This document shows, piece by piece, positions 29,328 through 40,959 of a stretch of DNA of 46,579 bases; the first letter of the stretch is position 1; each line of letters begins with the position of its first letter. The position numbers and the translations under genes were made by a program. Source of the DNA: Pseudonocardiales bacterium (GTDB lineage: Bacteria > Actinomycetota > Actinomycetes > Mycobacteriales > Pseudonocardiaceae); the NCBI GenBank assembly GCA_019240665.1, contig JAFAXZ010000033.1, forward strand, positions 1 to 46,579. The letters are read 5' to 3'. Under the pieces are notes generated by a model. That model was not told where the DNA came from, made no database searches, and saw only the letters and a list, made by a program, of their open reading frames with translations.

Positions 29328-30950
29328 TCACGCGTCGAGGAACGCTCGGCTGCGATTCACGGCACCAGCCGCCTTGGCCTGCGCCAGGATGGAAGCGACC
29401 GCGTCGTGCGCCGAGGCCAGCGCCCCTTCCATCCACGAATGCATCCGCGAGCAATGCTCGCCCGCCAGGTAGATGCGCCCTTCGGGCGCGGTGACATGGT
29501 GATGCAGGGTGGCGAACTGGCCCGGCATGTAGAAGGCGAAGGCGCCGGACGCCCACGGATGGCCGTCCCAGTACCAGCTCCTCACTTCGTCGTGCCGCAC
29601 CGTGCCGGGCTGCAGCAGCTCCGCGTGCAGGGTCTTCCCCAAGGTCTCGATCATGAGAGCCCCGCGCTCGGCGGCACGCATGTGCCCCAGCCAGCGGGCT
29701 TCCTGGCCCCAGCAGTCCGAGACGGCGAGGATGCCGGGTCCGGCCATCCTTGCCTCATCCCGGCCGACATTGTCCGACGGGTAGTAGACCGAGCCCGGCA
29801 TGAGGTCCGTGTAGCTCGCTCCGCCGAAAATTCCCTCGTTCTTTTCCCAGAAGCGCGTCGTCGTCGGTATCAGCAGCTTGGTCGCCGATTCGTAGCGAAG
29901 ATCGCGCATGGCGACCTGCTTCTCCGGCGAGAAGCGGCGATGCGCCTCGAGGCGCGCCAGCACCGGCAATGGAATCGTGCAGATCAGGAAGTCGGCTTCC
30001 TCGCGTTCGTGCTTGTGCGGCCTTGTCCGGTGGCGATAGATCGCGGCGACGCGGTTCGGGTGCTGATCCTGCTGAAAGTCGATGACTTCGCATCCCATCC
30101 TCGGCTTCGAGCGCAGCCTGTGCAGAAAAGCCTTTGGCAGGAGCTCCATGCCGCCGACGATTTCATAGAACCCCGGATTGCTCCAGATCCCGCACAGCTC
30201 CTCGCGCAAGAGCTCGGTGACGGCGGAATGTTGAAGCGTCCTGAGGCCCGAAATCGCCAAGAGGTACTCGATCGCCTCATTGGACAGGCCGGAAAGCTCG
30301 ATCAGCCGCCGCAGCGAGAAGCGATCGAGCTCGATCAGCCGTCGGGTCTTGAAGACGTTGGAATCCCTGAGCTCGCATCGTTCGTCGGCGGCAAGCGCGC
30401 GAATATGGCTGAGAACCGCGCGGTCCCACAGCTCGGCCGGAGATCTCTGCGCTTCGCACGCGTTGAGGCGATAGGCCTGCCGCAGCGAGTCCGGCTGTCC
30501 GGCCGCGACCTGTCGCTTGACCCGACCGATTCTCACGCGCCTGCCGCGGCCGAGATAGAAGGCAGCTTCGCTGCTCGTCACGAACGCTCTGGTCGGAAGA
30601 TTGAATTCGTCTTTCACGTACTTGCGTGCGAGCGCGTGTTGCTCGGGAATGCGCATGGCGCCGAGCTCGCCATAGGATCCGTCGGAAAACCTTGCGGTCC
30701 GCACGCGTCCGCCGACATGCTGCGTCTCGGCTTCGAGGATCGTGTAGGTGCAACCATGCCCTTGCAGCTCATAGGCCGCGCAAAGACCGGCCAGTCCGGC
30801 CCCGACGATGATGACGTGCGGCGCCCTCTCGCTCCGTACCCGTCGGCGCTGTGTGATTGGGCGCACGGCCGCGATGACGTTGCCGGCGCGCACCGCATCG
30901 GCAAACTCGCCCCGCATCGGCTGCGGACCACGAAGCTCGGCGATTTCCAT
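29328..30950 (-). CDS. Flavin monoamine oxidase / L-amino-acid oxidase family protein
   Basis: A 540-residue FAD enzyme. A Rossmann motif VIIVGAGLAGLCAAYEL starts near residue 46, followed by ILEAE and GGRVRTARFSDG. A C-terminal GRIYLAGEHCSRMHSWMEGAL closes the FAD site, as in amine oxidases and L-amino-acid oxidases. The roughly 45 residues before the Rossmann fold look unstructured; there is no clear signal peptide. GGAGGG precedes the start. It lies just downstream of the LodA-like fusion. LodA-type enzymes need a flavoprotein (LodB) to build their quinone; this protein resembles amine oxidases more than LodB, but such a role cannot be excluded. Confidence 0.82.
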   Translation of the reverse strand: MEIAELRGPQPMRGEFADAVRAGNVIAAVRPITQRRRVRSERAPHVIIVGAGLAGLCAAYELQGHGCTYTILEAETQHVGGRVRTARFSDGSYGELGAMRIPEQHALARKYVKDEFNLPTRAFVTSSEAAFYLGRGRRVRIGRVKRQVAAGQPDSLRQAYRLNACEAQRSPAELWDRAVLSHIRALAADERCELRDSNVFKTRRLIELDRFSLRRLIELSGLSNEAIEYLLAISGLRTLQHSAVTELLREELCGIWSNPGFYEIVGGMELLPKAFLHRLRSKPRMGCEVIDFQQDQHPNRVAAIYRHRTRPHKHEREEADFLICTIPLPVLARLEAHRRFSPEKQVAMRDLRYESATKLLIPTTTRFWEKNEGIFGGASYTDLMPGSVYYPSDNVGRDEARMAGPGILAVSDCWGQEARWLGHMRAAERGALMIETLGKTLHAELLQPGTVRHDEVRSWYWDGHPWASGAFAFYMPGQFATLHHHVTAPEGRIYLAGEHCSRMHSWMEGALASAHDAVASILAQAKAAGAVNRSRAFLDA

Positions 30951-31125: not shown

Positions 31126-34100
31126 TCAATGCATCGTGCCGAAGCCGATCGCCACACCGGTGGGGTGATGCTCTTCCTCGTCGAGCGTGGAGTCGATGCG
31201 CAACGGCTTCAATTCGCCGAGCCGCACGTCCGGCATGGGGCAGCCGCACTCCAACCACGCCGTCATCATGTCGCGCCCGCAATGACCGTCGTTGCCCGGG
31301 GCGACGAGCTCGAAACCCTGGGCCAGCGGGGTCGCCGCCAGTCGCCGCATGAACGCGCCCGCCGATGGATCTTTCTGTTGCTCGAACTCCGCGCCCAGCG
31401 CTTCCAGATACGCGCGGGCCGTGCGCGCCGGATTCGCCGCATCGCGGATGTCGGCAAGCCATTCGAGCGCGGATTGGCCTTCGGCGGCGTCCGCACGATT
31501 GAACTTGAACCCGCCGTTTTGCGAATTGGTCAAGGGTTGCGCCGCCAAATGGGTCAAGGCGCGCACCATGCCCCAGGCGACCCACGCATTGAACCTGGCC
31601 TCGATCGCGCTCGCCTTGCGTGCCCCGATGCCGTCGGCGGCGCCGTTTGCGGCGGTCGCGGCCGCCGCCGGCGCGCTTGCGGCGTGCCGATCCGCCAGAT
31701 CAACCCACAGCGCGATCCGGCGCGGTGACGTCACCCGCTGCAGGCGGCTCAGCCGGTCTCCGGACAGAAGGTGCGCGAGGCTCGGATCGCGCGCCAGCTT
31801 GCCCTTGAGCCGCTTGACGTCGGCCGCAAGTTCCGACCCGTCATCCTCGGAGTCGGCCAGGCTCCACGCTTCTTCCAGCGTCCACCGGCGCCACAGCTCG
31901 ATCTCCGCCTCCGTGAAGACGCGGTACATCGGCCCGCGGAATCCCAACAAGCCGAGGAACGGGCTCGACGCCGGCTTGCCCGGCACGATGAACCCCGCCT
32001 TGATGAGCGCGCGCAGGAATCCGGTCGGCTCGTTGAACCACTCGTTGATCGGAACGCCGCACAGCGCGCAGGTGCTGTGGTTGTATTGTCCGAACGTCTT
32101 CTTGCGCCGAATGAGGTTTTCCAGCTGCTCCTGCGACGTCAGCGGCTCCTTGACCACCCGGCTGACCTGCTGGATGAGAATCGCGAACGTCAAGGCGAAC
32201 GCCACGTATCCGTCCCAGATGCGCTGCCACTGCTGCTGCACCGCCGGATCCCCGCCCTGCAACATGGCCTGGTGGAGATAGAGCTTCACGGCACGCAGGA
32301 TGCCGGCGCCGTGGCCGTCCTCCGCGTTGTCGATGGCGATGTGCATCCGGTAGAAATGGGCGTCAAGGCCGACCCGTTCGATCATCGCGGCGACCCGGTG
32401 CAGCTCGAGCGCCGTCCACTCCAGCCACAGGGTCATGCCGATTATTTCCGGGTAGTAGCGCTCGGTGAACTCGGCAATCCCGAGCTGAAAGGTGGCGCTC
32501 TCGAACGCCGAATCGAGGAATTGCGGGTCGCGCGCGAACGCCAGGCTGGCGACCGGCGGCGGGTAGAAATCGATCGAGTGGCAGAGGTCGCGGTAGATGT
32601 TCGCGTGGTTCTGCGCCAGCACGCCGTCGCCCAGCTCCTCGTTGAAGATCGAGAACAGGATCGAGTTCACCTCGTCCATCGGGCCCAGGCGGTGGACGTT
32701 GCGCAGCCAGGCGCCATCGAGAAAATTGAACGGCGTGAGCTGGCGAATGCGCTCGGCCATCTGCTCGCGCGTCCTGAAGTAGGGATTGTGGCTCTCGTCC
32801 TCGGGATCGTAGCGCCGCCCGTTTTTCGTGAAGGCGAACTCGAAACAATCGTCATAGATGTCCTTCATCCGCGCCTCGAACGCCTGCTCGCTGTAGCGGA
32901 AAGGCCGGATGTTGTTCATGAAATTGAAGGCGGAGGGGAGCCGCTGCACCTGCCGCGCCGCCGCCAGGACGTTCTCGACGTATTCCTGCACCTTGGGCAG
33001 GCAGTTGCGGTGCTCCTCCAGGTTCAACAGGGCATGGAACAGCTCGCGGATGTCCATGCCGGCATAGGGGCGCCGTTCCGTCTCGACATGAACGATCTCG
33101 CCGCTGGCGCTGCGCCGCGGCACGACGAAGCCGAGCTCGCTCCAGTAACGCACCATGTCGTCGGGGCCGCGCCGCTCCCCGTCGCGCGGATCGTCGACCG
33201 CCCGCGCCGGGTTCTGCCATGGCCGGCGGAACAGCGTGCTCACGCCGAGCCCGCGGTCCCACCGCACCCGACCCTCGAGCCCGGCGCTGACCGGCTTGCC
33301 GCCCGCGCGCCACTGGCTGTCGGCCTCGTCGAAGACCTCCTCCGGCACGATGTCGTCGGGCCGCGCCGCCGGCCACCAGCCGTCCTTGCGCAGGTACAGG
33401 CTCGCCTGCCACGGCACCGCCAGGTACTTGGTGACGTCGCCTGCCTTCGTCTTTTTGCCGTCGATGCGAAATGCACCGGCGTAAAGCCGCGCGTCAGCGA
33501 CCGTGTATGACGCCTCGACGCCCGGATAGAAGGCGCCACCTGCGCATGGTTCCAGCGCGGCCCGCTGCAGCGCCGCGACCTGCGCCTTGGCATCGAGATC
33601 GTCGAGCTTGAGAGCCGTTGCGTGCTCGCCTTCGGCGAACTTGCCGTCGTTCCATTTCTCCAGCTTGCGGTATTGCGACGGCAACAGCGACAGCCAAGTC
33701 GTCGGCTTGCCGTTGGTGGCCTTGCCGCCGTCGCCCGAGAGCGGCGGCATGTATTGGCCGGTCGCCTGTTGGGCGGCAACCGCCGCATCCGGCCGCGGAT
33801 TGCGGATCCGCGCGAACAGCCGCGCCCGCTCTTCCGGCGAGAACGATGGCAGCGCGGCGAACGGCACGCGGTGCGCGCGGCGCACGTCGTTGTTCACCCA
33901 TGCGGTGTCGGCGGCACGCAGCAGGATCGGCTGGATGTCCCGGACGTAGCTCACGTCGGGCTCATCCTCGATCCACCTCGCGTCGATTGCGACTTCGCGA
34001 ACGACATCGAAAAGGGTGACGATCGAGAATATCCCGGGGGCATATTTGGGCGGCGCAACGATGACCCAGGCGGCATCCTCGGGATCGCGGATCTCGATCG

Positions 34101-34842
34101 TCCTCGCGTCCGGGGTCGGCAGCGTCACGGTGGCGGTGACCGGACCATCGGAGATATCGTCGTACCAGTGGTCGTTGTTGGCCCACGTGTCGGTCTGATC
34201 CGGATCCGCTCCGATCGGATTGTCGAGCTTGGTCGATCCGGCCGCGCCGAAGCCGCCGAGAACGATGAGCCGCCCATGACGGTCGGCTTTCAATTCGCCG
34301 AGCGCGACCGTCGTTCCGAGAAATCGGCCGGTGTCGAACTTGGCGTTTTCCGAATGTCCGTGGCTGCTGATGGATCGCGCGCCCGCATCGATGATGAGCT
34401 CGTGGCGATCGTCCGGATCACGCGTATCGGGATTGCGGCCCGGCACGCTGGCAATGTTGCGGAGCGGCGCATCGTCGATCGCCTGATGGCGGCTGACGCA
34501 TTTGCGCCAAGCCCCCTTCTTGTTGGCCAGATGCACCGTCCACTCCACCTTCGCCTTGCCGCCGCCTTTGCGGTCGCCGGGGCCGAGGCAGGGGAGTTCG
34601 CCCAGGTTCCTTCCGTCCTTGTCGTATCCGTAGATGCGAAAGCGCGCCGCCTGCCGTTTCACGCGGCCGCCTGCATCCTTGAAGGCGCCGTCGGGCGCCG
34701 TGACGGCACGCGGGTCGCCGGGAAGCTCGGGTCCGATGAAGTACGCGTCGGGGCTGTTGCCGACGCGCGCCACGCCTATACCGGGATGGATCTTGCATGA
34801 TGCGATTTGCGCAAAGTCGAAAGCGCCCGTCGTGACGGTCAT
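31126..34842 (-). CDS. LodA-like CTQ amino-acid oxidase fused to a haem-oxygenase-like diiron domain
   Basis: A 1238-residue protein. Residues 1-560 match LodA/GoxA quinoproteins: IHPGIGVARVGNSPDAYFIG, KRQAARFRIYGYDKDG, WTVHLANKKGAW. Cys433 (LEPCAGGAFYPGVE) and Trp489/490 (DGWWPAARPDD) sit where LodA forms cysteine tryptophylquinone. Residues 690-880 look like a haem-oxygenase-like diiron oxidase domain: NEELGDG (Glu736), QNHANIY (His746), LEWTALELH (Glu808 or 813), then HIAIDNAEDGH (His834, Asp838, His844). About 350 further residues, with STCALCG, are unknown. LodA itself is about 720 residues. ATG 34842 was chosen for its GGAGGG; the frame extends to 34926. The expected activity is oxidative deamination or another amine oxidation; substrate unknown. 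Confidence 0.8.
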   Translation of the reverse strand: MTVTTGAFDFAQIASCKIHPGIGVARVGNSPDAYFIGPELPGDPRAVTAPDGAFKDAGGRVKRQAARFRIYGYDKDGRNLGELPCLGPGDRKGGGKAKVEWTVHLANKKGAWRKCVSRHQAIDDAPLRNIASVPGRNPDTRDPDDRHELIIDAGARSISSHGHSENAKFDTGRFLGTTVALGELKADRHGRLIVLGGFGAAGSTKLDNPIGADPDQTDTWANNDHWYDDISDGPVTATVTLPTPDARTIEIRDPEDAAWVIVAPPKYAPGIFSIVTLFDVVREVAIDARWIEDEPDVSYVRDIQPILLRAADTAWVNNDVRRAHRVPFAALPSFSPEERARLFARIRNPRPDAAVAAQQATGQYMPPLSGDGGKATNGKPTTWLSLLPSQYRKLEKWNDGKFAEGEHATALKLDDLDAKAQVAALQRAALEPCAGGAFYPGVEASYTVADARLYAGAFRIDGKKTKAGDVTKYLAVPWQASLYLRKDGWWPAARPDDIVPEEVFDEADSQWRAGGKPVSAGLEGRVRWDRGLGVSTLFRRPWQNPARAVDDPRDGERRGPDDMVRYWSELGFVVPRRSASGEIVHVETERRPYAGMDIRELFHALLNLEEHRNCLPKVQEYVENVLAAARQVQRLPSAFNFMNNIRPFRYSEQAFEARMKDIYDDCFEFAFTKNGRRYDPEDESHNPYFRTREQMAERIRQLTPFNFLDGAWLRNVHRLGPMDEVNSILFSIFNEELGDGVLAQNHANIYRDLCHSIDFYPPPVASLAFARDPQFLDSAFESATFQLGIAEFTERYYPEIIGMTLWLEWTALELHRVAAMIERVGLDAHFYRMHIAIDNAEDGHGAGILRAVKLYLHQAMLQGGDPAVQQQWQRIWDGYVAFALTFAILIQQVSRVVKEPLTSQEQLENLIRRKKTFGQYNHSTCALCGVPINEWFNEPTGFLRALIKAGFIVPGKPASSPFLGLLGFRGPMYRVFTEAEIELWRRWTLEEAWSLADSEDDGSELAADVKRLKGKLARDPSLAHLLSGDRLSRLQRVTSPRRIALWVDLADRHAASAPAAAATAANGAADGIGARKASAIEARFNAWVAWGMVRALTHLAAQPLTNSQNGGFKFNRADAAEGQSALEWLADIRDAANPARTARAYLEALGAEFEQQKDPSAGAFMRRLAATPLAQGFELVAPGNDGHCGRDMMTAWLECGCPMPDVRLGELKPLRIDSTLDEEEHHPTGVAIGFGTMH

Positions 34843-35251: not shown

Positions 35252-35266
35252 ATGCCTGTTAGAAAA
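35244..35266. promoter_or_regulatory. TTTTC-N13-GAAAA palindrome over the LysR start codon
   Basis: The 23 bp begin TTTTCACC, include the LysR ATG (35252-35254) and end TTAGAAAA. An inverted repeat covering the start of a regulator gene could serve autorepression. The same element recurs at 36173-36195 (the broken LysR copy) and 777-799. The copy at 36173 is explained by gene duplication; the one at 777 is not. Confidence 0.4.
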
Positions 35267-36148
35267 CAGACACGCGACCTCGACTGGGAGGATCTTCGCT
35301 ACTTCGTTGCCTTGACGCGCCATGGCAGCCTGTCGGCGACCGCCCGCGGTCTGCGCGTGACGCACGCCACCGTCGCGCGCCGGGTGATGAACCTCGAAGG
35401 TTTGCTGGGGCGGCCATTGTTCGAACGGCGTGCCGACGGCTATTCGCTCACGGCCGAGGGCAAGGCGCTGCTCGACGAGGCGAACGCCATGGAGGAGGCG
35501 GCGCTGGCGGTGCTTCGCCGCATGGACACCAGCAACGAGCTCAATGGCCTCGTGCGTTTGACCGCCACCCGTGCGCTGGCCGACAGTTTCCTCATCGATC
35601 GGCTGGGCGAGTTGCACGAGCGCTATCCGGGTATCGACCTCGAGCTGATCGGCGATTCGCGCGTCGTCAGCCTCGCACGCCGCCAGGCCGACATTGCGTT
35701 GCGGCTCGGATCGTCGAAGGACAGCGACCTGATGGCCCGCCGCGTGGCGAGCATCGCGTTTGGTCTCTATGCGTCGCCTGCCTACCGCGACAAGCTCGCG
35801 CCCGGACAGACGCCGGCGATCATCGGCTTCGACCGCGACAGCGACTTCATCTTCGAGGCGGCGTGGCTCACCCGCCAGTTTCCCACCAAGCGGTTCGTGT
35901 TCCGCACCAACAGCCAGATCTCGCAGGCCGCCGCCGCGCGCGCCGGCTACGGCGTCGCCCTGCTGCCGCGATATCTGACGGTGAACGATCCCGGCCTGGT
36001 GCCGGTCCAGTTCGCCGAGCCGCTGCCCAATCGCGACGTCTGGCTCCTCATTCGCCGCGACCTGACCAAAGTCCCGGCCATCAGGGCGGTGGCGGACTAT
36101 CTGGTCGAATTGTTCCGGCGCGAGCGCCACCTCCTGGCGAACGACTGA
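35252..36148 (+). CDS. LysR-family transcriptional regulator
   Basis: A 298-residue LysR protein. The N-terminal winged helix-turn-helix covers about residues 10-70 (DLRYFVALTRHGSLSATARGL, THATVARRVMNLEGLLG, LFERRADGYSLT), followed by a periplasmic-binding-fold effector domain ending with YGVALLPRYL. It lies divergent to the LodA fusion gene, so it may control that gene. A partly destroyed tandem copy follows 32 bases later. The start overlaps the palindrome at 35244-35266. Confidence 0.88.
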   Translation: MPVRKQTRDLDWEDLRYFVALTRHGSLSATARGLRVTHATVARRVMNLEGLLGRPLFERRADGYSLTAEGKALLDEANAMEEAALAVLRRMDTSNELNGLVRLTATRALADSFLIDRLGELHERYPGIDLELIGDSRVVSLARRQADIALRLGSSKDSDLMARRVASIAFGLYASPAYRDKLAPGQTPAIIGFDRDSDFIFEAAWLTRQFPTKRFVFRTNSQISQAAAARAGYGVALLPRYLTVNDPGLVPVQFAEPLPNRDVWLLIRRDLTKVPAIRAVADYLVELFRRERHLLAND

Positions 36149-36172
36149 TCGACCGCACGGCCGCCGAGAAAA

Positions 36173-36195
36173 TTTTCACCCTGCCGGTTAGAAAA
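36173..36195. promoter_or_regulatory. TTTTC-N13-GAAAA palindrome at the dead LysR copy
   Basis: The same 23-bp element as at 35244-35266, with the former ATG changed to CTG (36181-36183). Both arms are kept exactly, although the downstream DNA-binding coding region has decayed. This could be recent duplication or selection on the operator itself. Confidence 0.35.
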
Positions 36196-37068
36196 CAGAC
36201 AATTGACCTCGAGGGGGCGGTCGTCGCTATTGGATGGCGTCGACGCGCCATGGGGCTGTCTGCGACGGCCGGAAATCCTCGCGTTTCTCATGCGACCACG
36301 CGCGTCGGGTCATGGCCTCGCGCTTTGCCCTGGCTTCCGTCGTCCGAACGGCGCGCCGACGGCGATGCGCTCGTCGCCGACGGCCAGGCATTGCCCGACT
36401 AGGCGAACATTTGGAGGACGCGGCGGTGCCGCGCTTCGCCCATGGCTGCGAGCAATGGCTTGAATGGGCTGGTCCGAGTGACCGCGACCTACGCGCTGGG
36501 CGATGGTTTCCTGATCCATCGCCTCGGCGAGCTGCACGACCGTCATCCCGGCATCGACATCGAATTGATCAACGACACGCGCATCGTCAGCCTGGCTCGG
36601 CGCGAAGCCGACATCGCGTTGCGGCAGGGATCGTCGCAAGAGAGCGACCTCACGGCCTGCCGTGTGGCGAGCATCGCTTTCGGCCTTTATGCCTCGCCGG
36701 CCTATCGCGACAAGCTTGAGGCCGGGCATCGGGCCGCCTTCATCGGCTTCGACCAGGACAGCGACTTCATCTTCGAGGCGGCGTGGCTCACGCGTCAGTT
36801 TCCCGCCCGCCGGTTCGTGTTCCGTACCAACAGCCAGATGTCGCAGGCCGCCGCGGCGCGCGCCGGCTACGGGCTCGCGCTGCTGCCGCGATATCTGGCG
36901 GCGAACGATCCCGGACTGGTCAACATCCCGTCCGGCGAACCCATTCCCAATCGCGACGTGTGGCTCCTCATTCGCCGCGACCTCGCGACGGTCCAGCCCA
37001 TCAGGGCGGTGGCGGAGTATCTCATCGAACTGTTCCGCCGCGAGCGGCACGTCCTGGCAAACGACTGA
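36181..37068 (+). pseudogene. Tandem LysR copy with ruined DNA-binding domain
   Basis: DNA from about 36170 repeats the start of the intact LysR gene, but the ATG has become CTG, several indels scramble the first 80 codons, and a TAG lies near 36400. From ATG 36442 a clean frame of 208 residues runs to 37068 and matches the effector domain of the upstream copy along its length (for example ALGDGFLIHRLGELHDRHPGID and AAWLTRQFPARRFVFRTNSQ). The gene could at most produce an effector-domain-only protein without a helix-turn-helix. The LuxR gene begins 14 bases after its stop. Confidence 0.8.
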
Positions 37069-37826: not shown

Positions 37827-38744
37827 CTATTTCCGCAGATCGGCCAGGGAGAAGTCCTCGAGGATGGGCGGCGGCTGCGGCCGCACCGGCGTCATGCCGG
37901 CGGCGCGCGCCAGGGCTTCGATCTCGCCGCGGTCCAGCATCGCGTCGAGCGCCTGGTCCACCTTGCCGATCAGGACCGGGTCGAGGGCCACGAAACCCAG
38001 ATTGAAGCCGATGCGGTGGTGGTAGCCGGACGGCGTGAGCCGTGTATCCGGATGCTCGGCCCTATAGGCGTCGAGCCGCCGCAATTCCACCAGCACGGCG
38101 TCGTAGTCGCCCTGCTCCAGCCGCGGCAGCAATTCGCCGCGACCGGCAACCACGTGGGTAATCCGGTCGATCAGCCGGCCATTGTCGAACAGCATCAGGA
38201 TGGCGTCGGCGAACGTGCCGCCCTCCACGCCCAAGCGCAGATCCCGCAGGTCCGCCAGGCTCGCGACCGGCCTGCCGGCCGCCGCGCGGCCGAGCACCAC
38301 GGTGAGGAGCGCGCGATGATAGGGCCTGCTGGCTACCAGCGTGCCCAGGGCGACGCGGCGGCGCCGGTCCGCCGCGCCGGCGCCTTCGAAGTCGGGCAGC
38401 CTCGTGGTTTCCAGCCCGGGTTTTCCGAGCGCGGCCCTGACGAGCGGATAGCTCGCCGCCAGCTGGCAGCGTCCATCGGACAGCAGCGCATTGGCCTCGA
38501 GCGCCATGCTGGTGCCCTCGTCGAGCTTGCTCTCGAACCACTGGACCGCGAGGGTGCGTCCGAGGCGCTCGGCGGCCGCCGCCGCGACCGCGAGATCGAA
38601 GCCGCTGCCGCCCTGCGCCCGGTGCACCGAGTAGGGCGGAAGGTCCTGGTTCAGGCAGACGCGCAGGGCCTCCTGCGCACGTGGCGGTGTCGGCCCCCAC
38701 GCCAGCAGGGCGGCGGCAAGCGTAACAGCATGCCGCGCGCTCAA
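37827..38744 (-). CDS. Periplasmic substrate-binding protein (family 3, XoxJ/MxaJ-like position)
   Basis: About 305 residues. An N-terminal secretion signal (LAAALLAWGPTPPRAQE) precedes a family-3 solute-binding fold: LRVCLNQDLPPYSVHR, GSGFDLAVAAAAAERLGR, LRDLRLGVEGGTFAD, YDAVLVEL. In methanol dehydrogenase clusters, a protein of this type (MxaJ/XoxJ) accompanies the PQQ enzyme and may help its maturation. TTG 38744 overlaps the cytochrome stop (TTGA) and has GGAGG upstream, so it is the likely start even though the open frame runs further. It converges with LuxR at 6 bp distance. Confidence 0.75.
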   Translation of the reverse strand: MSARHAVTLAAALLAWGPTPPRAQEALRVCLNQDLPPYSVHRAQGGSGFDLAVAAAAAERLGRTLAVQWFESKLDEGTSMALEANALLSDGRCQLAASYPLVRAALGKPGLETTRLPDFEGAGAADRRRRVALGTLVASRPYHRALLTVVLGRAAAGRPVASLADLRDLRLGVEGGTFADAILMLFDNGRLIDRITHVVAGRGELLPRLEQGDYDAVLVELRRLDAYRAEHPDTRLTPSGYHHRIGFNLGFVALDPVLIGKVDQALDAMLDRGEIEALARAAGMTPVRPQPPPILEDFSLADLRK

Positions 38745-39112
38745 GACTGCCCTCCGGCGCGCACATAAGCCCAGAGCGCGTCGATCTCGTCGGCGCTGAG
38801 AACGTCGCGCCACGGCGGCATGTTGTTCTTGCCGCGCGTCACCGACTCGACGAACCGCGCCTTCTCGTCCCTGGGAAATTCGCGCAAATCGAACGTGACG
38901 TTGCCGGGATTGACCATGTTCAATCCGTGGCAATGCATGCAGTTCTGCACGTAGAGCCGCTTGCCGGCGGCGATCCGTTGCGCCTCGGTCTGGGCCTGCA
39001 GGACCGCGCTCCTCGGCGCGTCCTCGGCCGCCGGGACGTCCGTGAGCGTCGCGGCCGAAAGCACCGCAACCGTCAGGATGACGCCGGCGAAGATGCCGAG
39101 ATCCCGGGTCAT
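38741..39112 (-). CDS. c-type cytochrome (XoxG-like position)
   Basis: A 123-residue secreted cytochrome. After an N-terminal hydrophobic signal (IFAGVILTVAVLSAATLT), one haem site CMHCH appears in LYVQNCMHCHGLNMVNPG, and MPPW downstream is a likely Met ligand. It should accept electrons from the PQQ dehydrogenase upstream and pass them on in the periplasm. The start overlaps the dehydrogenase stop (ATGA). The size and single haem fit a small class I cytochrome. Confidence 0.85.
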   Translation of the reverse strand: MTRDLGIFAGVILTVAVLSAATLTDVPAAEDAPRSAVLQAQTEAQRIAAGKRLYVQNCMHCHGLNMVNPGNVTFDLREFPRDEKARFVESVTRGKNNMPPWRDVLSADEIDALWAYVRAGGQS

Positions 39113-40770
39113 TGCGGCGCCAGCGCAAACGCCCACAGCGACCCGCCCGCCGGCACCGAGGCGAGGCGCGTATCGCCCGAGAACAGTGTGTACACGCCGC
39201 CCAGTCCGGTGGTCACGGCGACGTATTGCACGCCGTCCTGTTCCCAGGTGATCGGCTGGCCTTCGATGCCGGACCCGGTCTTGAACTTCCAAAGCTTGTC
39301 ACCGGTGTCGGCATCAAACGCCTGGAGCTCGCCGTCATAGCCGCCGGTGAATACCAGCCCACCTGCGGTCGTCATCGTTCCGGAGAACCGGGGCAGGTCG
39401 CTCGGCGCCTCCCATTTGGACTTTCCGGTCATCGGATCGATCGCCTTCAGGTAGCCGCGCGGCCCGTCCGGGAAAGTCCAGCCGGCCGCCATATCCATGC
39501 CAAGGTACCATTGGCCGGCCTTGTAATCCGCGGGCACCGCTTGGTAGTTCGACGCGAAATTAAGCGTATTTGCGTAGGCCAGGCCGGTCCGCGGATTGTA
39601 CGACATGGGCGGCCAGTTCTTGCCGCCGAGAATCGAGGGCCACACCGTGACCAATTCGCCGGCGCGCGCCTTGCGGGCGACGTCTGTCTCGATCGGCCGG
39701 CCGGTCTCGAGATCGATGCCCGATGCCCAGTTCATCTGGACATAGGGGTTCGCGCCAATCAGCTTGCCGTTTGTGCGATCGAGCACATAGAAGAAGCCGT
39801 TGCGATCAGCGTGCAGAATGACCTTGGTCGGCACGCCGTTCACCTCGATGGTGGCGAGCAGCATTTCGGCAACGCTGTCATAGTCGAACGGGCTGTTCGG
39901 CGAGAATTGGAAGTGCCACTTGATCGACCCGGTCTGGGGATCGAGGGCCAGCACCGAGCAGGTGTGAAGATTGTCGCCCGGCCGAACCGCGGTGTTGAAC
40001 GGCGCCGGGTTGCCGGTGCCCCAATAGACGGTGTTGAGCTGCGGATCGAACGAGCCGGTGATCCAGGTGGTGCCGCCCCCGTATTTCCAGGTATCGCCCG
40101 CCCAGGTGTCATGGCCGGGCTCGCCCGGTCCCGGAACCGTGTAGGTCCGCCACAGGTGGTTGCCGGTCTCAGCCTCCCAGCCGTCGATGTAACCGCGGGT
40201 ACCAAACTCGGCGCCCGAGACCCCGGTGACCACCACGCCGGCGGCGACCAGCGGCGCCATCGTCATGGAGTACCCAAGCTTGATATCGCCGGCGTTTTGC
40301 CGCCACAGCTCCTTGCCGCTCTTGGCGTCGAGCGCAATGACGTTGGCGTCGAGCGTGGTGCGGAACAGCTTGCCATCGAAGATCGCAGCGCCGCGGTTGA
40401 TGATGCCGCAGCACACGATGCGCGGCGTTGCCGCCGCGTAGTTGACCTTGGTCTTCCAAATCTGGTTGCCGGTCCGGGCGTCGACCGCCATGGTGGCGTT
40501 GTGGGTGGTGACGTAGATCACGCCTTTGTAGACCAGCGGCTGGGATTCTTCGCTGCGGTTGTCGTCGAAGCTGTAGTTCCACACCGGGACCAGGCGCTTG
40601 ACCGTATTCTTGTTGATTTGTTCGAGCGGGCTGTAGCGCTGCTGGTGATAGCCCATGCCGTAGGTGAGCACGCTGGAAGTCTCTCCGCTGGCCAGCTCGG
40701 CAGCTGTTTGCGCGGATGCCGCGAGGGGAGCGAGCAAAGCCAAGCCTGCCGCCCATACCGCGATTTTCAT
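39109..40770 (-). CDS. PQQ-dependent alcohol dehydrogenase, lanthanide type (XoxF/ExaF-like)
   Basis: A 553-residue periplasmic quinoprotein with signal peptide (residues 1-20, ending AASAQ) and an eight-bladed propeller. Cys120-Cys121 form the vicinal disulfide of PQQ enzymes (RIVCCGIINRG). Glu188 (GAEFG), Asn254 (GTGNPAPF) and Asp296 are the metal/catalytic residues. Asp298 in FDYDS is the extra aspartate typical of lanthanide-dependent enzymes (calcium enzymes have Ala or Ser/Thr there). It oxidises a primary alcohol; which one cannot be told. ATG 40770 opens the signal peptide; the frame extends to 40857. It is the first gene of a three-gene operon, 190 bp downstream of a lux-box-like element. 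Confidence 0.85.
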   Translation of the reverse strand: MKIAVWAAGLALLAPLAASAQTAAELASGETSSVLTYGMGYHQQRYSPLEQINKNTVKRLVPVWNYSFDDNRSEESQPLVYKGVIYVTTHNATMAVDARTGNQIWKTKVNYAAATPRIVCCGIINRGAAIFDGKLFRTTLDANVIALDAKSGKELWRQNAGDIKLGYSMTMAPLVAAGVVVTGVSGAEFGTRGYIDGWEAETGNHLWRTYTVPGPGEPGHDTWAGDTWKYGGGTTWITGSFDPQLNTVYWGTGNPAPFNTAVRPGDNLHTCSVLALDPQTGSIKWHFQFSPNSPFDYDSVAEMLLATIEVNGVPTKVILHADRNGFFYVLDRTNGKLIGANPYVQMNWASGIDLETGRPIETDVARKARAGELVTVWPSILGGKNWPPMSYNPRTGLAYANTLNFASNYQAVPADYKAGQWYLGMDMAAGWTFPDGPRGYLKAIDPMTGKSKWEAPSDLPRFSGTMTTAGGLVFTGGYDGELQAFDADTGDKLWKFKTGSGIEGQPITWEQDGVQYVAVTTGLGGVYTLFSGDTRLASVPAGGSLWAFALAPQ

Positions 40771-40959
40771 ACCCGTCCGTCCGCAGCGAAACCCCGCCTC
40801 GGCGCTCGGCGGACTAAGCGCGTTATACGGCGTCAGATGACAAATAGTGGCTTCCATTCACGCGGCTCCTCTGGATTGGCGCAGGTCCGCGCTCAACGGC
40901 GGCACTTTGACCGTAACGATCGCGTGTCGGCAGACTATCCCCAAGCGCAGACCGTGTGT

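Follow-up and report, generated by a model that had tools for sequence, protein, structure and literature searches.

A LodA-like/haem-oxygenase-like diiron fusion protein with arginine at the position of the CTQ cysteine

The window, a 46,579-nucleotide contig of a Pseudonocardiales bacterium (JAFAXZ010000033.1), encodes a protein in which a LodA-like domain is joined to a haem-oxygenase-like diiron (HDO) domain. The fusion is real and is conserved in other bacteria. In the window protein, the residues aligned with the cysteine and the conserved aspartate of the cysteine tryptophylquinone (CTQ) site are replaced by arginine and serine, and no lodB gene adjoins the fusion. The set of HDO metal ligands is complete, and the domain is predicted to adopt an HDO fold. 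We favour, at a probability of roughly 55%, the reading of the protein as a diiron enzyme, probably an N-oxygenase, whose LodA half is unable to make CTQ and has become a retired scaffold.

The fusion gene and its homologues

An earlier note on this DNA, made from the sequence alone, had proposed a single 1238-residue frame that joins the two domain types, and both points were borne out. The frame was uninterrupted over 1238 codons on the minus strand (34842 to 31126), and GGGAGGGGG sits a few bases 5' of its ATG. The LodA_N, LodA_C and Haem_oxygenas_2 matches all exceeded their Pfam cut-offs, the last one (PF14518, residues 700-875) with 65.7 bits against a cut-off of 28.9 and E 6e-18. The domain order is LodA (19-488) and then HDO (700-875), laid out as follows.

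31126..34842, minus strand: LodA-like/haem-oxygenase-like diiron fusion gene, 1238 aa, running from the ATG at 34842 to the stop at 31126
34057..34788, minus strand: LodA_N domain, residues 19-262 (Pfam PF17990, E 7e-65)
33379..33738, minus strand: LodA_C domain, residues 369-488 (Pfam PF18417, E 1.7e-21)
32173..33072, minus strand: haem-oxygenase-like diiron domain, residues 591-890 (Pfam PF14518 at 700-875, and model matches to RohS, HrmI and SznF)
31843..32172, minus strand: C-terminal extension to the diiron domain (residues 891-1000), found on stand-alone relatives as well (L081 and the first L006 gene)
31129..31842, minus strand: C-terminal tail, residues 1001-1238, which duplicates the extension module in relatives

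The last ~350 residues, which the note had left unassigned, consist of an extension shared with stand-alone HDO proteins and a diverged tail that duplicates the same module in relatives. Over the fusion proteins (window residues 891-1238), extension and tail were recognised by hhalign as two copies of one module (94.6%, E 6.7e-8). The tail of the window protein has diverged, with 34% identity to that of Bradyrhizobium uaiense and 38% to that of L050 (G442). By eye, the module resembles cytochrome c tails. A profile match of the extension to cytochrome c555 reached only E 0.87 and was not used as evidence.

The search for further proteins with both domains, proposed in the same note, returned 15 co-linear homologues, which makes 16 fusions including that of the window. 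They came from B. uaiense (L002, with a broken frame), three Streptomyces (L003, L004, L007), a Paraburkholderia caribensis plasmid (L013), the genus of B. uaiense (L050, L051, two in L052, L053, L098), the genus of S. cinerochromogenes (L077, L078), and the order of the window (L079, L080). The contig derives from a metagenome-assembled genome, so an assembly chimera or sequencing artefact joining two genes had to be considered, and the earlier note had named an artefact of this kind among the outcomes that would overturn the fusion. The join is not an artefact, because the 15 homologues share it, five of them on contigs of 7-9 Mb; we give that explanation practically no weight.

The genome counts are lower bounds, with two to four candidates scored per genome. 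The fusion was present in at least 1 of 296 genomes of the class sample (the window's own), at least 3 of 219 of the order sample, and at least 1 of 246 of the phylum sample (at E 1e-80). It was found in at least 5 of 146 genomes of the genus of B. uaiense (at least 6 of 223 in an overlapping sample) and in at least 3 of 150 of the genus of S. cinerochromogenes. Among plasmids, 63 of 72,556 records matched, and of the 20 matches listed one (L013) has both halves. The HDO-only matches that were given loci in the class and order samples had no LodA in their frames, several of which end at the locus edge, and the match in L023 came from a 1013-aa frame; only L065 departed from this, as it is the L080 fusion itself.

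L002 entered the alignments by its second open frame only, and the HDO proteins without LodA of L081 and L006 were aligned but stand outside the 16-fusion count. In the tree of 15 rows, without L098, the window and B. uaiense proteins were sister rows (98/97), with L050 next (100/100). In the draft assembly of B. uaiense, a frameshift at a homopolymer run breaks the gene (L002 8740-8900). A tandem pair of LodA-HDO fusion genes, each with its own lodB-like gene, was observed in L052 (4647-15158).

The CTQ site and the lodB partner gene

The CTQ residues of LodA are C516 and W581 (PMC4417212). Counted on the LodA chain, C516 closes PWQADFFNC, D512 is the nearby aspartate, and W581 is the second tryptophan of YWWP. 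GoxA has the same motif with D678, C682 and W697, the last two located by counting on the chain. GoxA D678 is named in PMC7876137, where the aspartate is called strictly conserved in tryptophylquinone enzymes and where its mutation in GoxA is said to leave CTQ formation possible. Two features of the window bear on this site.

33373..33414, minus strand: CTQ segment, residues 477-490 (PWQASLYLRKDGWW), with Ser481 at the Asp position, Arg485 (codon CGC) at the Cys position and Trp490 at the Trp position, from alignments
33544..33546, minus strand: Cys433, the candidate of the earlier note, aligned with LodA residue 442 and not with the CTQ cysteine

By way of an alignment of LodA and GoxA with a Streptomyces relative and a further alignment with the window protein, LodA C516 and GoxA C682 fell on Arg485 of the window motif PWQASLYLRKDGWWP, and the conserved aspartate (GoxA D678, LodA 512) fell on Ser481. 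Trp490 aligned clearly with GoxA W697 in two separate alignments. Its match to LodA W581 was a short stretch with an insignificant -0.3 bits, and the family profile placed the WWP columns elsewhere in LodA, at a long insertion. The earlier note had offered Cys433 and Trp489/490 as plausible CTQ residues; Trp490 stands with respect to GoxA, with a weak alignment to LodA W581, and Cys433 was ruled out. The latter is present in all 13 aligned Cys-bearing rows besides their CTQ cysteine and is a separate conserved residue.

The CTQ cysteine was found in 14 of the 16 fusions, the aspartate in 13 and the tryptophan in all, and the full Asp/Cys/Trp set occurred in 13 of the 14 Cys-bearing proteins. 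Only the window and B. uaiense proteins lack the cysteine, and both have arginine, encoded by CGC in the window and AGG in B. uaiense. Because the codons differ between the two sister genes, the replacement is not a one-base error, and a sequencing error was ruled out, the arginine being carried by two assemblies. The 13 longest frames from non-fusion LodA loci yielded the CTQ motif in ten cases, all ten with Asp and Cys; three gave none.

A LodB homologue adjoins each of the 14 Cys-bearing fusions. At E 1e-4, neither the window contig (46.6 kb) nor the 18.3 kb surrounding the B. uaiense gene gave one. In the genome of the window (3.4 Mb, 87% complete), the best LodB profile match was partial: it scored 57 bits, covered 180 of 375 positions and lay in a 762-aa frame, which resembles the second-best matches of 42-49 bits in the genomes of three relatives. 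The best matches in those three genomes reached 515, 439 and 261 bits at near full length. The LodB of B. uaiense lies on a separate contig (C1163), on which there is also a second LodA frame.

The designation quinoprotein oxidase in the earlier note is unsupported for the window protein, because the CTQ cysteine and aspartate are gone and lodB is not a neighbour. As judged from the alignments, the LodA half of this copy appears to have lost the ability to build CTQ, whereas a CTQ quinoprotein reading is plausible for the 14 Cys-bearing fusions. The window protein scored below the NCBIfam equivalog cut-offs for LodA/GoxA (280 of 750 bits and 175 of 600 bits). The LodA part of the structure model matched GoxA with Z 20.1 (root-mean-square deviation (rmsd) 4.8, 377 aligned) and LodA with Z 17.7. 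As a separate observation, the profile of the fusion family reached the CTQ-bearing gamma subunit of quinohemoprotein amine dehydrogenase (1jmx_G) over the CTQ segment with E 0.032, which hints at a possible distant link between these two CTQ families.

If the protein were a functional CTQ amine oxidase coupled to a diiron oxygenase, another cysteine, for example Cys433, would form the cross-link. Such an enzyme would fit the retained Trp490 and LodA fold, as well as the near-universal Asp/Cys/Trp set and adjoining LodB of the Cys-bearing relatives. We nonetheless regard it as very unlikely, given Arg and Ser at the positions of the LodA/GoxA Cys and Asp, the co-occurrence of Cys433 with the CTQ cysteine in 13 rows, and the failure to find lodB nearby. 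Less probable still, to the point of being speculative, is that the diiron domain hydroxylates the fused Trp490 in place of LodB, yielding a Trp-derived cofactor without a Cys cross-link; we know of no description of such a cofactor. In a milder form, the HDO domain of the Cys-bearing relatives would supply the first hydroxylation of the tryptophan, a step believed to proceed autocatalytically in LodA, with an apparent dependence on copper (PMC7876137).

The diiron half and the favoured reading

The metal-binding stretch of the HDO half is the following.

32311..32637, minus strand: stretch with the six predicted iron ligands E736, H746, E808, H834, D838 and H844, from the alignment; D709 lies outside it

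These six residues, picked out in the earlier note, did not vary across 15 fusion rows, and each had its counterpart in SznF: E215, H225, E281, H311, D315 and H318, in that order (SznF E-value 0.0009). Asp709 was also invariant and aligned with SznF residue 189, which we take to be the extra carboxylate of SznF. Each of the six SznF ligands is reported to be essential (PMC11705231). The three-histidine/three-carboxylate (3H/3C) ligand set of HDOs is present in full, and the dimetal site of the window protein looks intact.

Structure prediction, suggested in the earlier note as a check, gave an HDO fold for this segment, with block means of the predicted local distance difference test (pLDDT) of 72-97 over window residues 601-890. 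The closest matches were RohS with Z 23.4 (rmsd 3.3, 268 aligned), HrmI with 22.5 and SznF with 22.4, which are about tied. FlcD (17.8), CADD (14.9), PqqC (14.5), BesC (14.2), UndA and PolF (13.2 each) and AetD (11.3) followed. All these matches fall within residues 1-316 of the second model. RohS and HrmI are N-oxygenases by their PDB titles, and HrmI and SznF are described as such in PMC13108848. Among HDOs, the domain profile reached only SznF and RohS in the PDB sequences.

We infer N-oxygenation because the closest folds are N-oxygenases. The HDO half would bind two irons and activate O2 at the dimetal site, and the activated oxygen would attack the nitrogen of an amino acid, amine or peptide. 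The LodA half, without CTQ, would serve as a scaffold or hold the substrate; in the window copy, enzymatic activity probably resides in the iron half alone. It is also conceivable, though unlikely, that the HDO domain is active with another HDO chemistry, such as C-C cleavage, desaturation or rearrangement. Across HDOs, similar ligand sets support very different chemistry (PMC13108848). Against this stand the N-oxygenase identity of the top three folds, the Z gap to BesC, UndA, PolF and AetD, and the restriction of the profile matches to SznF and RohS.

The pairwise identities of the two halves, with the LodA half compared over residues 280-590, were unequal within the clade of the window. They were 58% (LodA) and 76% (HDO) between the window and B. 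uaiense, 57% and 70% between the window and L050, and 52% and 65% between L050 and B. uaiense. In eight of nine other fusion pairs the halves were within 5 points of each other. The rate does not track the loss of the cysteine exactly, because the Cys-bearing L050 shares the gap. L050 itself lacks the aspartate, so the change in constraint may have begun with the loss of that residue, as far as these comparisons tell.

This lower conservation of the LodA half would also suit a gene in early decay, with the LodA half free of selection and the protein heading to loss; the frameshift of the sister gene in B. uaiense and the diverged C-terminal tail point the same way. However, the window frame is open over all its codons, and third-position G+C is 0.83-0.91 across all four gene segments. 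Of the positions invariant in 12 other fusions, 73 of 79 in the LodA half, the same as in L050, and 48 of 55 in the HDO half were kept in the window protein. The arginine, moreover, was kept through different codons. We consider early decay improbable.

Several points weigh against the retired-scaffold reading. The cysteine and lodB were probably lost in a single step of evolution, observed in two related rows; of these, the B. uaiense row carries a frameshift and comes from a draft assembly. A distant lodB could be missing from a genome that is 87% complete. The model of residues 1-1000 has a mean pLDDT of 65, with values below 50 over residues 474-592, which span Arg485. The argument for N-oxygenation is the fold ranking of a predicted structure, at 11-14% identity. 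RohS, HrmI, SznF and FlcD (with 3bjd) align from the start of the model and most of the others from about residue 57-64, which gives the former longer alignments. As for the identities, a LodA-half deficit was also seen in the exceptional pair, G313b and Scin (43% against 52%). The gap of the clade to Scin is small (LodA/HDO: window 44/47%, L050 41/43%, B. uaiense 40/44%), and L050, which has the cysteine and LodB, shows a similar gap within the clade. A slower HDO half would look identical to a faster LodA half, and the LodA half, with 73 of its 79 positions kept, is not simply decaying.

Neighbourhood, related systems and significance

Two genes flank the fusion.

29328..30950, minus strand: flavin adenine dinucleotide (FAD) L-amino-acid-oxidase-like gene, 175 bases downstream of the fusion, on the same strand
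35252..36148, plus strand: divergent LysR-type regulator, 63-64% identical to LysR in L051, L053 and L098

A homologue of the FAD oxidase-like gene (47%) lies near the fusion in L050, and the LysR genes of L051, L053 and L098 lie a few genes away from theirs. No matching LysR was found in the other loci compared at the threshold used. Peptidases stand beside the fusions of several relatives: M28 in L050, S10 in L051, L052, L053 and L098, and S53 in L013. Thiamine-diphosphate enzymes were found near the fusions in L002, L051, L052, L053 and L098. The FAD oxidase neighbour and the peptidases suggest that the substrate is drawn from amino acids or peptides, and the neighbourhoods point to peptide and amino-acid turnover without indicating a specific substrate. 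Elsewhere in the window, the LysR genes form a tandem (35252-37068) of an intact 298-aa copy and a shorter 208-aa copy, which are 78% identical. At 37827-40857 there is a pyrroloquinoline quinone (PQQ)-dependent dehydrogenase-like gene, followed, on the minus strand, by two further genes, one cytochrome c-like and one with a sub-threshold Pfam match to a solute-binding protein.

The earlier note knew of no description of the fusion, and this must be corrected. Five LodA proteins with pfam14518, from Actinoplanes, Burkholderia, Calothrix, Paenibacillus and Rhizobium, were tabulated in 2015 (Table 3, PMC4417212). They likewise combine LodA-family and iron-containing-redox-enzyme domains in a single chain; the pfam14518 domain is described there as N-terminal, whereas it is C-terminal here, and this description sets them apart. 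According to that paper, all the LodA-like proteins it surveyed have the CTQ Cys and Trp and the vast majority have a lodB-like gene nearby, while the window protein is without the Cys, the Asp and lodB. This was the only report of the fusion found, in a search largely without subscription papers. In the literature searched we found neither the C-terminal arrangement as a conserved family, nor its coupling to lodB, nor a branch without the CTQ cysteine.

No N-terminal HDO-LodA protein was found among the loci compared. LodA starts at residue 386 in the Spirosoma locus L005, which gave no HDO match, and L014, L038, L048, L069 and L016 gave none either. In a profile scan, 26 loci had a LodA frame outside the fusions and no HDO within that frame, some of these frames ending at the locus edge. 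The LodA protein of L069, from the order of the window, ends in a von Willebrand A domain, and its CTQ motif is intact; this kind of fusion is also listed in PMC4417212.

The window protein shares the LodA_N and LodA_C domains, the fold and the CTQ tryptophan with LodA (L-lysine 6-oxidase) and GoxA (glycine oxidase), but differs in the CTQ Cys, the conserved Asp and the LodB/GoxB partner, which was not found in the contig. With SznF, RohS and HrmI it shares the HDO fold at the highest Z, including the six aligned SznF ligands, and differs by its low identity (11-14%), a three-residue insertion between D838 and H844, and Asp709 at SznF residue 189. SznF likewise combines an HDO with another metal domain, in its case a cupin (PMC13108848), in place of which the window protein has the LodA-like domain. 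The stand-alone HDO proteins of L081 and L006 (Coxiellaceae) share the HDO domain and, in L081 and the first L006 gene, the C-terminal extension, but have no LodA half. L006 (7959-12112) holds two adjacent HDO genes, the first without several metal ligands and the second with them. A gene resembling a carbamoyltransferase by eye follows, and the locus may be a biosynthetic cluster.

LodA-HDO fusions bring together two kinds of oxygen chemistry, each directed at amino groups, and in the papers found no function was reported for any member. The name "LodA/GoxA family CTQ-dependent oxidase", carried by the Paraburkholderia relative, could land on a protein that is incapable of making CTQ. A natural member without the quinone but with the diiron site would allow the roles of the two halves to be separated, for which the Cys-bearing fusion of L050 or L053 would be the comparator.

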